Shown: one piece after another, positions 39,956 through 63,185 of the stretch
How the letters are laid out: each line of letters opens with the position of its first letter
Position numbering within the stretch: position 1 is the stretch's first letter
DNA from: Moniliella sp. 'wahieum'
Lineage: Eukaryota; Basidiomycota; Moniliellomycetes; Moniliellales; Moniliellaceae
NCBI GenBank assembly: GCA_003971905.1
Contig: RSEE01000010.1
Coordinates: 806,001 to 870,000 of the forward strand
Reading direction: 5' to 3'
Length of the DNA: 64,000 nt
Position numbers and translations under genes: made by a program
The notes under the pieces: model-generated
The model's input: only the letters and a program-made list of their open reading frames with translations
The model's database searches: none
What the model was told of the DNA's origin: nothing

Positions 39956-41149
39956 TTACAACAGCTTCTCCAACTCTTCGTAGATCGCCTGGCCCATCTC
40001 CTTGGTCGACGTTTGGCCGCCCAAGTCGCGTGTGCGCAGGCCGCGCCCGCCAATCTCCGGAGCATCCAGCACCTTGCGCACCGCCGCCTCCACCTTCTCT
40101 GCCGCTGCCGGCTGGGCAAGCGACCAGCGGAGCAAGAGCGCAGCCGACAAGATGGTCCCAATGGGGTTGGCAATCCCTTGCCCGGCAATGTCGGGGGCCG
40201 AACCATGGATGGGTTCGTAGATGCCATTGCACCGGTTCTTGCCGTCGGGCAGGGCCGACAGCGAGCCAGAAGGCAGCAGCCCCAAGGAGCCGGGCAGGAC
40301 ACTGGATTCGTCCGAGAGAATGTCGCCAAACATGTTCTCGGTAAGGAGAATGCCATTGAGCTTGCGCGGGTTGCTCACCATCAGCATCGCCGCACTGTCA
40401 ACCAGGTGGTGGTCGAGGGGAATGTTCTTGTCCCCAAACTCCTTCTCGAGCGTGTCCGTGACGACCTTACGCCACAGCCGGCTGGTGGCCAGCACATTGG
40501 CCTTGTCAATCGAGTGAATGGGCAGCGGGGGTTGTGCTGGAGGGCTAAGTAGGCAGCCAGGCGCGTGATCCGTTCCACATCCGCCCGGTCGTACACCATC
40601 TGGTCCACCGCTTCCCCCTTGCTGCCCTCGGACAGGTCCGCCTCGGTACGCGAGCCAAAGTACAAGCCCTTGACCAGCTCCCGCACCACAATCACGTCCG
40701 TGCCACGAACAATCTCGGGGCGCAGCGGCGAGTGCTCCACAAGCGAGTCCGAGATGAAGGAGGCCGGACGAATGTTGGCGTAGAGGTCGAGTTCCTTGCG
40801 GATGGCTAGCAAGCCTTGCTCGGGGCGCACCTTGCCCACACCCCACTTGGGCCCGCCAACGGCACCTGGGTTCAGTGGGTTGTTAGGGAGAGGGAGGAGG
40901 AAGGATGGGCAACACGGGGGAAAGGCGTACCAAGCAGAATGGCGTCAGCAACCTTGCATGCCTCGCGCGTCTTGGTGGGGTAAGGGTCGCCGGACGAGTC
41001 GATGGCGGCGCCGCCAAAGTCGTAGGAGGTGAGCTTGAGGTCAAAGTCGCTCTTGACGCAACGAGCTCGAGGATGCGGCTGGCCTCGGCCACGATTTCGG
41101 GCCCGATGCCGTCGCCGGGAAGAACAGCAATGTTGAACGTCTTGGACAT
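39956..41149 (-). CDS. LEU2: 3-isopropylmalate dehydrogenase
   Basis: Oxidative decarboxylation step of leucine synthesis, NAD-dependent. ATG 41149 gives [20 protein letters not shown]. An intron at 40866-40930 (65 bases) interrupts the Gly codon of [15 protein letters not shown]. The rest shows [83 protein letters not shown], and the NAD motif [14 protein letters not shown]; it ends EELEKLL with TAA at 39956. Two frame changes are seen: one C missing in the run complementing 40527-40531 (AAC CCC CCG expected) and one near 41057 (GCG TCC AAG expected). With these the protein has the usual length, about 375 residues. Confidence 0.94.
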
Positions 41150-41850
41150 GGCGGGAACAAACAAACAACAGGGGCAGGAGGGGGTGGGCCGTGGTTGGTG
41201 GTGGTGGAGCAGGGAGGGAGGGGCTGCTGCCGGCGGCAGCGGTGTGGTGGGCCAAGCAAGTCCGCTTGACTGGGGCGAAACGTGAGCCGGATGGCAGGCA
41301 CAGGGGCAGTCTGTGCCCATGTCCGCCCATCCGTTGCTTCCTCCGCAGCAGCAATTCTCCACGGCCCCCCACACTTCTCCGCGCATGGTGTGAACATTTG
41401 CACAGTGGCGCCCACCCGTCGGCGCGGACGAGCTGGATTGGGCCGGTGGGCCGGCATGCATGCCCCACTCCGTGCAGCTGGAAACGTAAGCACGGACACG
41501 TGGGCGGAACAGGCGGGGCGGAATGCGGGAGCGGTCGGAGGCGCCCGGGAGCGGGTGCAAGGGCGTGCGGCGGCGGGAGCGCGGCGAGAGGCAGTGTGCG
41601 GCGGGTGGTCACGGGCAATTAGTCAGGCGGACGCAAGCGCAGCGCTGCCGTCAGCACCCGCGTGCGCATCCACTGCACCCGGGGTGCGCCCAGACAGACC
41701 GGCGCCGTGCCCCGGGCGGCGCGGATGAGCGATCGATGACGTCGGGCGGCGGACTGGGTCTGTGCAGCGCTGGGCAACCTTCTGGCCAGCCAGCCACCTC
41801 CACCCCTGGCTCTGCCAACCACCGCTGCTCCCCTCCGCGTCGCCGCCACC
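41150..41850. promoter_or_regulatory. divergent LEU2/KGD2 promoter region
   Basis: About 700 bases separating the two start codons. GC-rich with no clear TATA on either strand. The KGD2 ATG sits in a CGCCACC context. Shared control of the two genes is not shown. Confidence 0.5.
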
Positions 41851-43555
41851 ATGCTTGCGCCTCGCCTTCTCCGCCCCTCCGCTTCCCGCGTCCTTGCGGC
41901 GCGCCCCCCATCCTCCCCCGTGCCCGCGCCCCCCTGCCCGCCGTCCGTGCGCTGAGCCTGGCCGCTGCGCCTCGCGGTGCGCTCGCCCCCCCGCCGCTAC
42001 GCCCCTGGCCCTGCGCGGCCTCCACTCGTCTGCGTATGCGCTCGACTCGGTCAAGGTCCCCGAGCTCGCCGAGTCCATCACCGAGGGCACGCTCAAGCAG
42101 TGGCTCAAGCAGCCCGGCGAGTATGTCCAGGAGGGCGAGGAGATCGCCAGTGTCGAGACGGACAAGATTGACGTGAGCATCAATGCGCCCGTCAGCGGCA
42201 TTTTGACCAAGACGCTGGCCAACCCCGATGACAACATTGAAGTCGGCCACGAAATTGCCATTATCGAGCCCGGTCCTCCTCCTTCCGGCGGCGCTGCTGC
42301 CCCTGCCCCCCAGGCTGCCGAGCCGCCCGCTGCTTCGCCTGCTCCTGCTGCCCCGGCACCTTCGGGCTCAGCGAGGGCAAGGCCACGGGCCCTGTGCAGA
42401 CCGTCAACGTTCCCTCGCTCGCCGAGTCCATCACGGAAGGTACGCTGAAGCAGTGGCTCAAGCAGCCTGGGGAGTACGTCAAGGAGGGCGATGAGGTGGC
42501 CAGCATTGAGACGGACAAGATTGATGTGAGCGTCAATGCGCCTGTGAGTGGCTTTGTGCAAGAAACCCTGGCCAAGGAGGGCGACACGGTCGAGGTGGAA
42601 CACCCTGTTCAAGATCCAGCCTGCGGACGCGCCCGCTGGTGGGGCACCCGCTGCTGCCGCACCCGCGCCTGCCGCCAGCGCCCCTACCCTTCTGCTCCTG
42701 CCCCCTCCGCAGCCCCCACGCCTGCGCCTGCCGCGCCTTCCAAGCCGGCGGCCCCTGCCCAAGAAGGATGCTGCGGCTGCTCCTGTGGAGGAGAAGCCTG
42801 TGGCTGGCAGCCGCGCTGTGCACCGGGTCAAGATGAACCGGATGCGTTTGCGCATTGCGGAACGGTTGAAGCAGTCGCAAAACACCGCGGCCAGCTTGAC
42901 GACGTTCAATGAAATTGACATGAGCGGTCTGATGGCCTTCCGTGCGCGCCACAAGGACGCCGTGTTGAAGGCGACTGGCGTCAAGCTTGGCTTCATGAGT
43001 GCCTTCTCCAAGGCGTCGGCGCTAGCGCTCAAGGAGATCCCGGCTGCCAACGCGCAGATCGAGGGTCCTGGTCTGGGCGACACGATTGCGTACCACGATT
43101 ATGTTGACTTGGCCGTTGCCGTGTCGACGCCCAAGGGTCTCGTACCCCGGTCGTGCGCAACATTGAGTCCATGTCGCTGGTGGAGATTGAGGCGGCGATC
43201 GCTGCGCTGGGCACCAAGGCGCGCGACGGCAAGTTGTCCCTGGAGGACATGCAGGGCGGCACGTTTACCATCTCGAACGGGGGTGTGTTTGGGTCGCTGT
43301 TTGGCACCCCCATCCTCAACCTACCCGGCGCGGCCATCTTGGGCATGCACGGCATCAAGGAGAAACCCGTGGTGGTCAATGGCAAGGTGAAATTCGCCCA
43401 TCATGGTCGTCGCCCTGACGTACGACCACCGTATCCTCGACGGCCGTGAAGCGGTCACCTTCCTCGTCAAGCTCAAGAACTACCTGGAGGACTCCTTCGA
43501 TGCTGATCTAACTGCCCCCGGCCTAGGGCCTAGCATGGAGGCTGCTGCCCAATAA
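41851..43555 (+). CDS. KGD2: 2-oxoglutarate dehydrogenase E2 (dihydrolipoyl succinyltransferase) with two lipoyl domains, frame broken
   Basis: The core of the mitochondrial 2-oxoglutarate dehydrogenase complex, moving succinyl from lipoyl-lysine to CoA. ATG 41851 begins an Arg/Ser/Ala presequence ending GLHSSAYA. A first lipoyl domain (about 42048-42270) has [17 protein letters not shown] and the lipoylation site ETDKID. After a Pro/Ala linker a second, different lipoyl domain (about 42400-42620) has [17 protein letters not shown] and again ETDKID. A second linker leads to the catalytic domain: [64 protein letters not shown], and [12 protein letters not shown] with catalytic His and Asp. Indels occur in the presequence, both linkers, near 43148 and near 43395. 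KGD2 normally has one lipoyl domain. Confidence 0.92.
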
Positions 43556-51730: not shown

Positions 51731-52206
51731 GGCGGGGGGCGGTGGCGAGGCAGCGAGGGAAGGGGGGGGTGGGCGCGCAGATGCGGAGGCGAGCAGCGCA
51801 ATCCAGGAGCTTATCTGGCCAGCGCTGCGAGAGAGGTGGTTAGTGTTGCCTTCACTCATGGAATACTCAGGAATACAGTGTTGCATTCCACTCAGGGAGG
51901 CAGGCGCACGTGTTGCGTCACGTGGCCACCCTTCCCTGCTCGCTCTCCCGCCAGGCGGAATTCGGCGGGCCAGTTTCAGATTTCAATTCGCACACCGGAT
52001 CAGTGGGCATGGCGCCAGTGTGCGGCTGGTCCGCCCGCCCGCCCCCCTGGTTTGCAGCCGAGCGCCTGCCGTTTCCCGCCGCCTGTCTTTCTCCACCACC
52101 TTGCCTCTGTGCCTGCCCAGCCCCTTCCGCGCGCAGCTTTCGATGTGCGTCCCCCCCCCCCGCGCCGCGCCCTCCGCTGACTCTTGTCCCCTGCGCCCAC
52201 AGAACC
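51731..52206. promoter_or_regulatory. divergent kinase/VMA3 promoter region
   Basis: About 475 bases between the two start codons. Rich in C/T toward VMA3 and lacking a clear TATA. Both transcripts must start here. Confidence 0.5.
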
Positions 52207-52711
52207 ATGCCTGCCACCGACTTCAACACGGAGCTTTGCCCCGTCTACGCGCCCTTCTTTGGCGCCATGGGCTGCGCGGCCGCCATTGTCTTCACCTGCT
52301 TTGGCGCCTCGTACGGCACGGCCAAGAGCGGCGTGGGTCTGAGTGCGATGGGTGTCCTGCGCCCCGACTTGCTCATCAAGTCTATCATCCCCGTCATTAT
52401 GGCCGGTATCGTGGCCATCTACGGCCTGGTCGTATCGTGCTCATCTCGTCTGGCATCAAGTCGCCCATGTCGCTCTACGCCGGCTTTGTCCAACTTGGCG
52501 CTGGTCTCTCGGTGGGTCTGGCTGGTCTGGCTGCTGGGTTTGCTATTGGTGTGTGGGCGATGCTGGTGTGCGCGGCACGGCCCAACAACCTCGCCTTTTC
52601 ATCGGTATGGTCCTCATCCTCATTTTCGCCGAGGTGCTCGGTCTGTACGGCCTTATTGTCGCCCTGATTATGAACACCCGTGTCCAGGACGACATTGGCT
52701 GCCAGCTCTAA
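52207..52711 (+). CDS. VMA3: V-type ATPase 16-kDa proteolipid subunit c, frame broken
   Basis: Forms the proton-carrying ring of the vacuolar ATPase. ATG 52207 reads [20 protein letters not shown], with helices [19 protein letters not shown] and [17 protein letters not shown]. Then a frame change near 52435 (one base missing after GTATC) and [38 protein letters not shown]. Another missing base near 52553 leads into [20 protein letters not shown] and [17 protein letters not shown], whose Glu is the proton-binding residue. Ends DIGCQL, TAA at 52709-52711. Four helices and about 165 residues, normal for the family. The gene has no intron in its coding part; a CCCACAG just before ATG may be a leader intron acceptor. 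Confidence 0.95.
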
Positions 52712-53417
52712 GTGTTTCGCCTAGGCCTGCTCCTCGAATTCGGGCTTTGCTGCGCTGCTTTGGCTCTCCTTCCCTGGGTCACCTTGGTCCCATTGCCTTT
52801 CATTCCCCCGCATGGTACTCGCCTGAGCGTAAGGTGCGGGAGTGCTTAGACTACTTCGTTGTATCTACGTGTCTTGTGCGCACTCGTGGGGCTCCCTGCT
52901 GCGTAAAAGCGTGACGTGCAACATTCCTCCCTTCCTCTCGCCCTCTCCCGCCTCTGCTCCTTTCTGGCCCCACCGCTTGGCTCAAGCCAACGAAAACCGC
53001 ATCCAAATCCCCCCATCCTCCCAGGAGAATGCCAATCGGCTCAGTGTAGTTTCGCCTTCCTTGTAGTCGGATCTCCTTTGGTCCCGCCAGGGGAGGCCGT
53101 ACCAGAGGCGGAGTCCAGGAGCGTTTTAAGGTAGAGACGGGACTGGGAAAAAAGTCGTAGGGTTGGTCATTCATCTTAGGGTCGATCATCGAGATCATCG
53201 ATCACATCAGGGTTGGCGTCATGGACATCTCACACTGACGCTGTGCCAGGAACCAAACCCCAGGTCGCGCACGTCCCAGCGAGCTAAGCTGTACCCGCGG
53301 CTTCTTTGCACGATCGTCGACCTTGGTGACGAGCACCTTGGCCACGACCTCCGTTGCTCCCTTTGCCTTTTCGCCTCGCCGAGTCCCCATTGACCGACGT
53401 TTGACCTGTTCAGTACC
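52712..53417. other. intergenic between VMA3 and a small gene
   Basis: About 700 bases, C/T-rich in places, with ATCGAT-like short units near 53185-53205. No gene supported. Confidence 0.45.
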
Positions 53418-62083: not shown

Positions 62084-63185
62084 ATGGCAGCACCAACATC
62101 GCTTGCCACGTGCTTCAGGTTACCAACGCTCAGGACCAGTGCCTTATTTTCGCCCGGGCGTCGCATGTTGGGCTCCAGCGCCCGCGTCTGCGCGCATGAC
62201 AACCCGCTCGGTCTTCCTCGCAACACTGATCCGCCTGCCTTCCCGCGCCGAAGAGGCCCCGAGAAGCGCCGCATTCCACACGCCGCTACGTCGTCGCTGT
62301 CTCCTCTGGAAAGGGGGGCGTGGGCAAATCCACTGTGGCGGCCAACTTGGCCGTGGCCTTATCCCTCTCCACCCCCAGTGGGCCAGCGCTTGGCCCCCTC
62401 CCCCTGCCGGGCAGCGGCCTCGAGTGGGACTGCTCGACTTGGACGTTTTGGTCCCTCGGTACCAAGACTACTGGGGCTCAAGGACGCACCAGAGCCGGAT
62501 TTGACACCGGCTGGGGCACTGGTGCCACTCAAGAGCCACGGGCTGAAGGCCATGTCGCTTGGGTTCTTGCTGCCTCCCTCCTCGGCGCTGCCGGGGATGG
62601 ACAGAGCGAGGGAAACGAAGATACGCCAGTGGTTTGGCGAGGGATGATGGTAATGAAGGCCGTGCAGCAACTGCTTTTTGACGTGGACTGGCGTGGACCC
62701 GAGTCGCTTTCTTTGCCCGCTGATGTTTCGGCACCAGGGGTGGACGTGTTGGTGATCGATATGCCACCTGGGACCGGGGATGTGGCCTTATCCCTGGTGC
62801 AGTTGGCCGAAATCGACGCCAGCGTTGTTGTCTCGACTCCGCAAGAGGTGGCTCTTGCTGACGCGCGCAAAGGCCTGGCCCTGTTCCGGAAAACAGGCGT
62901 GCCTGATCCGGGCCTGCTGCTCAACATGGCCCACCTCGTCCTGCCCGATGGCACCAAGAGTGAAATCTTTGGTTCGGCGACCAAGTTTGACGAGCTGGCT
63001 GCCCAGCTGGGTGCACCGTGCTCGGCCGAATCCCTATTGACCCCCAACTCAGTCCTGCAGCCGACCAAGGCCGGCCCGCTTCGTTGGACCTTCTGCATCC
63101 TACAACGGCGGGTGTGACGGCGCAAGCGTTTGCACATGTAGCACAGGATGTATGGCAGCTCCTGTTGAAGCCTAAGAAGGTGTGA
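62084..63185 (+). CDS. IND1: mitochondrial Mrp/NBP35-type P-loop Fe-S carrier (Ind1/NUBPL-like), frame broken
   Basis: A P-loop ATPase that helps assemble Fe-S clusters, in mitochondria for complex I. ATG 62084 opens an Arg/Ser-rich presequence (MAAPTSLATCFRLPTLRTSA, FSPGRRMLGSSARV), then NPLGLPR and, after a shift, VVAVSSGKGGVGKSTVAANL, the deviant Walker A. Next are LDLDVFGPSVPRLLGL, SHGLKAMSLGFLL, VVWRGMMVMKAVQQLLFDVD, VLVIDMPPGTGDVALSLVQL, VVSTPQEVALADARKGLALF. The site that carries CPxC in the family reads NMAHLVLPDGTKSEIFG, lacking both Cys. It ends FAHVAQDVWQLLLKPKKV, TGA 63183-63185, 20 bases from the stop of the convergent gene. Indels near 62290, 62410, 62570 and 63040. Confidence 0.87.

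Follow-up and report, generated by a model that had tools for sequence, protein, structure and literature searches.

We analysed a 64-kb window, the whole stretch of DNA considered here, on contig C10 of the Moniliella sp. 'wahieum' genome (assembly of 69.5 Mb in 223 contigs; window GC content 58.6%), and in particular KGD2, a gene that by its sequence encodes the E2 component, or dihydrolipoyl succinyltransferase, of 2-oxoglutarate dehydrogenase (E2o). A sequence-only reading of this DNA had proposed that two complete lipoyl domains, separated by a Pro/Ala linker, precede the single catalytic domain of the protein, and we found both domains and the linker in place. The gene (41851-43511) runs on the plus strand, as do all of its parts described below, from an ATG at 41851 to a TAA at 43509-43511 that is read in the frame of the other gene copies. 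No intron is needed to read it, and the window copy contains several small indels.

The protein would begin with a presequence (41851-42046) that, with 64 residues and a net charge of +10 in the copy of the gene on contig C7, is likely to direct mitochondrial targeting. Lipoyl domain 1 (LD1; 42047-42271; 75 residues) matches Pfam family PF00364, Biotin_lipoyl, with E 1.1e-16, and is followed by an Ala/Pro linker (linker 1; 42272-42399; 43 residues in the C7 copy) and by lipoyl domain 2 (LD2; 42400-42622; 75 residues in the C7 copy), which matches the same family with E 1.2e-17. Each match covers nearly the full profile. A second Ala/Pro linker (linker 2; 42623-42808) leads into the single succinyltransferase catalytic domain (42809-43508; PF00198). 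LD1 and LD2 both have the motif ETDKID around a lysine, together with a further shared motif, as had been noted from the letters alone; the lysine codons, at 42164-42166 in LD1 and 42517-42519 in LD2, mark the expected sites of lipoylation. Because the window copy shifts frame several times, its LD1 and LD2 lie in different frames, and the last residues of its LD2 are out of frame. Alanine and proline make up 60% of linker 1 over its 43 residues and 74% of linker 2 before the point at which the C7 copy changes frame. The presequence is basic (+10) and the lipoyl domains are acidic, with net charges of -10 for LD1 and -8 for LD2; the lipoyl domain of PDB entry 7q5q, which we take to be the E2o of Chaetomium thermophilum, has a net charge of -10.

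Four copies of KGD2

A search of the whole assembly with the KGD2 DNA returned four loci, the window copy on C10 and others on C47, C7, and C54, at 96-97% identity, and all four contain both lipoyl domains. A genome-wide search with the Pfam lipoyl family (37 matches, 40 candidates scored) gave two matches at each KGD2 locus, eight in total, one of which contains a stop. In the C7 copy, the presequence, LD1, the 43-residue linker, and LD2 form a single open frame of 370 codons from stop to stop, with two PF00364 stretches within one protein (E 8.5e-37). Given this read-through frame and the presence of both domains in all four copies, we conclude that the LD1-LD2 tandem is real and not an assembly artefact. 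The four loci and the C7 frame likewise rule out a copied read, or chance, as the source of the second domain.

An alignment of the four copies has gap or insert columns in each of them: 12 in C10, 5 in C47, 6 in C7, and 17 in C54, with columns common to two copies counted. Most of these indels are single bases private to one copy, as errors of a low-accuracy assembly would give, and real mutations would be indistinguishable from them. The occurrence of KGD2 in four near copies suggests that the assembly holds about four haplotypes or subgenomes.

E2o identity and comparison with other E2 proteins

The catalytic piece of the C7 copy alone reached 394.2 bits with TIGR01347, the equivalog model for sucB, which is above its cut-off of 378.65, and two stretches of the C7 frame matched the same model as E2o-type lipoyl domains, with the lysine in DKI. 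Its best match in the PDB was the E2o 7q5q (E 2.5e-112), followed by 8x02, 7uol, and 6h05, which are also E2o. By these matches the gene product is E2o, the identity first assigned to it. With linker 2 of the C7 copy read in two frames, no match to the E3-binding domain family PF02817 was listed up to E 10, although most matches with E above 0.1 do not pass the filters of HMMER. The absence of an E3-binding domain is a family trait of eukaryotic E2o (PMC9974300). Among possible partners, the Kgd4 family, through which eukaryotic E2o recruits E3 (Kgd4/MRPS36), has one match in the genome (40.8 bits, cut-off 22), and the E1 C-terminal family has 11 matches, which are gene pieces of up to 169 bits and do not distinguish a 2-oxoglutarate from a 2-oxoadipate E1. 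A 2-oxoadipate E1 was sought by eye among the E1-family loci of the genome and not confirmed, the weaker matches being left unassigned.

We then compared KGD2 with known systems. It resembles eukaryotic E2o (DLST/Kgd2; 7q5q) in its catalytic domain, its ETDKID lipoyl domain, the presence of a Kgd4-family gene, and the lack of a detected E3-binding domain, but differs in having two lipoyl domains where eukaryotic E2o usually has one. A single lipoyl domain per chain is a usual, not strictly defining, trait of eukaryotic E2o, and all four copies here have two. The sequence-only reading had given one such domain as normal for yeast, animal, and bacterial E2o alike. All five longer E2o chains in the PDB that were matched by both the lipoyl and the catalytic query (7q5q, 9njt, 6h05, 8x02, and 7uol) have 30-58 residues between the lipoyl and catalytic matches and 42-75 residues before the lipoyl match, stretches too short to accommodate another lipoyl domain with its linker. 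A plain count of lipoyl stretches per PDB chain proves nothing by itself, because the two-domain mammalian pyruvate dehydrogenase E2 (E2p) also counts once at that cut-off.

For bacteria, the rule has a known exception. The NCBIfam model TIGR02927, SucB_Actino, aligns through both lipoyl domains in one stretch, and chain D of PDB entry 9y7v, annotated as the acetyltransferase component of pyruvate dehydrogenase and presumably mycobacterial DlaT, shows two lipoyl domains; a two-lipoyl SucB-type E2 is thus already known in bacteria. These proteins and KGD2 alike carry their lipoyl domains as a tandem pair, with motifs that resemble one another, but the C7 catalytic piece fits sucB (394 bits) better than TIGR02927 (196 bits), and the C7 pieces, scored separately, reach 157.6 and 195.8 bits on a model whose whole-protein cut-off is 423.45. 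The actinobacterial SucB family also has an E3-binding domain, whereas none was detected in KGD2. Mammalian E2p likewise has two lipoyl domains with a linker between them (PMC7448341), whereas KGD2 scores as E2o. No two-lipoyl eukaryotic E2o was found in the accessible parts of the open-licence literature (for example PMC7448341, PMC9681731, PMC6270654, PMC8421416, PMC9974300, and PMC10203282). A scan of non-eukaryotic genome contigs yielded, among the matches listed, only a clostridial lipoyl protein, and a scan of viral contigs yielded no match; both scans say nothing on fungi.

Elsewhere in the genome, a catalytic-family search (30 candidates scored) returned 28 pieces on 14 loci, comprising 4 E2o, 8 E2p, and 2 E2b-like loci, where the E2p and E2b labels are our own reading. 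Two lipoyl domains were found at 4 of 4 E2o loci and one at each of the 10 other E2 loci, in a search that ignores introns and could overlook another domain encoded by a weakly matching exon of its own. The eight E2p loci (on C28, C11, C161, C120, C36, and C21, on C10 near 431000, and on C43 near 900) apparently fall into two sequence groups. Five places (L010-L014) carry a PDX-like lipoyl domain, on contigs that gave no match to the catalytic family. As with KGD2, the assembly contains several near copies of other genes with lipoyl or biotin domains.

Divergence of the lipoyl domains and the surroundings of KGD2

LD1 and LD2 are identical at 52 of 75 residues (69%), close to the two thirds first estimated by eye, and at 167 of 225 bases. 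By the NG86 method, the two domains of the C7 copy differ by a nonsynonymous divergence (dN) of 0.21 and a synonymous divergence (dS) of 0.85. Over the four copies, dS between LD1 and LD2 is 0.79-0.91, compared with 0.057-0.094 among the gene copies. This roughly tenfold difference implies that, provided there was no gene conversion, the age of the duplication is about ten times that of the separation of the gene copies; together with the presence of both domains at four loci, it agrees with the original view of an old duplication rather than a copied read.

The four copies differ from one another at 7 codons in LD1 and 8 in LD2, all of them synonymously, at 22 synonymous and 3 amino-acid-changing codons in the catalytic domain (one of the latter beside an indel), and at 6 synonymous and 5 amino-acid-changing codons in the presequence. 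For these counts, gapped copies were omitted at codons touched by indels (2 in LD1, 3 in LD2, 6 in the catalytic domain, and 6 in the presequence), and a three-base insertion in the LD2 of C54 falls outside them. Since neither lipoyl domain has an amino-acid substitution among the copies, both look constrained, and purifying selection on both is indicated, in a small sample.

The divergence between LD1 and LD2 is unevenly spread. Their dN is concentrated in residues 46-75, at 0.40-0.43 versus 0.09-0.10 in residues 1-45, and their dS is 1.3-1.9 in residues 46-75 and 0.57-0.61 in residues 1-45. The lower dS of residues 1-45 may reflect gene conversion between the two domains, on too few sites to decide. 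In a tree of eight lipoyl domains over 72 columns, a split with support of 100/100 places LD1 and LD2 on one side, together with the domains of E2o and 9y7v, and the E2p- and PDX-type domains of this genome on the other. We also considered derivation of one lipoyl domain from E2p, which is not favoured, as the tree separates LD1 and LD2 from the genome's E2p-type domains. The same tree does not order the duplication: none of the four pairings tested on these eight domains was rejected (p-AU 0.19-0.43). The best tree does not pair LD1 with LD2 and sets LD1 beside the 9y7v pair with support of 37/43; out of 1000 bootstraps, LD1 paired with LD2 in 493, with LD1 joining 7q5q in 22 and LD2 joining 7q5q in 32. 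Over the 72 columns, LD1 and LD2 agree with each other but not with 7q5q at 18, LD1 agrees only with 7q5q at 5, and LD2 only with 7q5q at 7. These column counts lean toward a duplication that postdates the divergence from the lineage of 7q5q, or toward gene conversion.

In the window, a LEU2-type isopropylmalate dehydrogenase gene (39956-41150; Pfam Iso_dh, E 1.8e-61), on the opposite strand and also frame-broken, stands head to head with KGD2, its start as read by eye lying about 0.7 kb from the KGD2 start. Further along are an ATP synthase subunit c match (51844-52911; E 7.3e-12) and a NUBPL-type P-loop NTPase (62230-63114; ParA, E 6e-43). An 18S rRNA pattern was found at seven places in the assembly: C2 (L036, at the contig start), C37 (L037), C33, C39, C41, C83, and C6. 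Those on C2, C33, and C83 lie within the first 2 kb of their contigs and that on C37 some 16 kb before the end of its contig; these positions may be subtelomeric. The 18S sequence reads GCCTGTCGTTACTACC at a primer site that is usually invariant.

Two probable swinging arms

We favour, at a probability of roughly 0.8, the reading that KGD2 encodes an E2o of the ordinary type in which both lipoyl arms work. Both lipoyl domains would be kept, each carrying lipoic acid on the lysine of DKI, and each E2o chain would present two swinging arms in series, giving 48 per core instead of 24 if the core is the expected 24-mer. In mitochondria, the probable location of the enzyme, both arms would shuttle succinyl groups from the E1 component (E1o) to the catalytic domain and would be re-oxidised by the E3 component, presumably tethered by Kgd4. 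The two arms in series would most likely do the same job, although redundant, additive, and specialised arms would look alike at the level of sequence.

Several observations weigh against two working arms. None of the four copies is fully open, and even C7 shifts frame once, in linker 2. The three-base insertion in the LD2 of C54 adds one residue just before ETDKID, and further indels interrupt the lipoyl domains in both C54 and C47. We read all of these as assembly errors, although real mutations would be indistinguishable from them. Linker 1 (129 bases) or one lipoyl domain could in principle be excised as an intron. Finally, AlphaFold models of the single lipoyl domains were unusable (mean pLDDT 39 and 42), so the position of the lysine in the fold rests on homology.

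It is possible, if a good deal less probable, that the enzyme requires a single lipoyl domain and that the other persists almost without consequence. Both domains retain the same motifs and acidic charge, as this would allow, and the pyruvate dehydrogenase E2 of Escherichia coli carries extra lipoyl domains with little effect. Complexes of E. coli pyruvate dehydrogenase without two of the three E2 lipoyl domains have been built (PMC6270654). The lack of amino-acid substitutions in either domain among four copies separated by dS of 0.057-0.094 argues instead that both are under selection, in a small sample and with the one-residue insertion in the LD2 of C54 limiting the argument.

We consider it doubtful that the two domains divide the work, one acting with E1o and the second with a different partner, such as a 2-oxoadipate E1 or contacts to E3/Kgd4, so that they are not interchangeable and this E2o lineage has two non-equivalent arms specialised for different partners. 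The concentration of LD1-LD2 divergence in residues 46-75 would fit such a division, as would the absence of amino-acid substitutions from both domains among the copies. However, the same half of the domain varies among other E2o proteins too, 7q5q and 9njt agreeing at 12 of 27 columns there versus 24 of 45 in the first half, and no second, adipate-type E1 was confirmed. That one lipoyl domain was duplicated in error by assembly or sequencing, as the many small indels in the window copy and the other copies might lead one to suspect, is next to inconceivable for domains that differ at 58 of 225 bases, occur together at four separate loci, and are read through in one frame in C7.

The citric-acid cycle E2o of this fungus has two slightly different swinging-arm domains, where eukaryotes usually have one, and the doubling looks functional. 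How arm number relates to flux has been studied mainly in pyruvate dehydrogenase. With a naturally occurring two-arm E2o, one could test directly whether arm number limits flux and how many lipoyl domains the complex is able to use.
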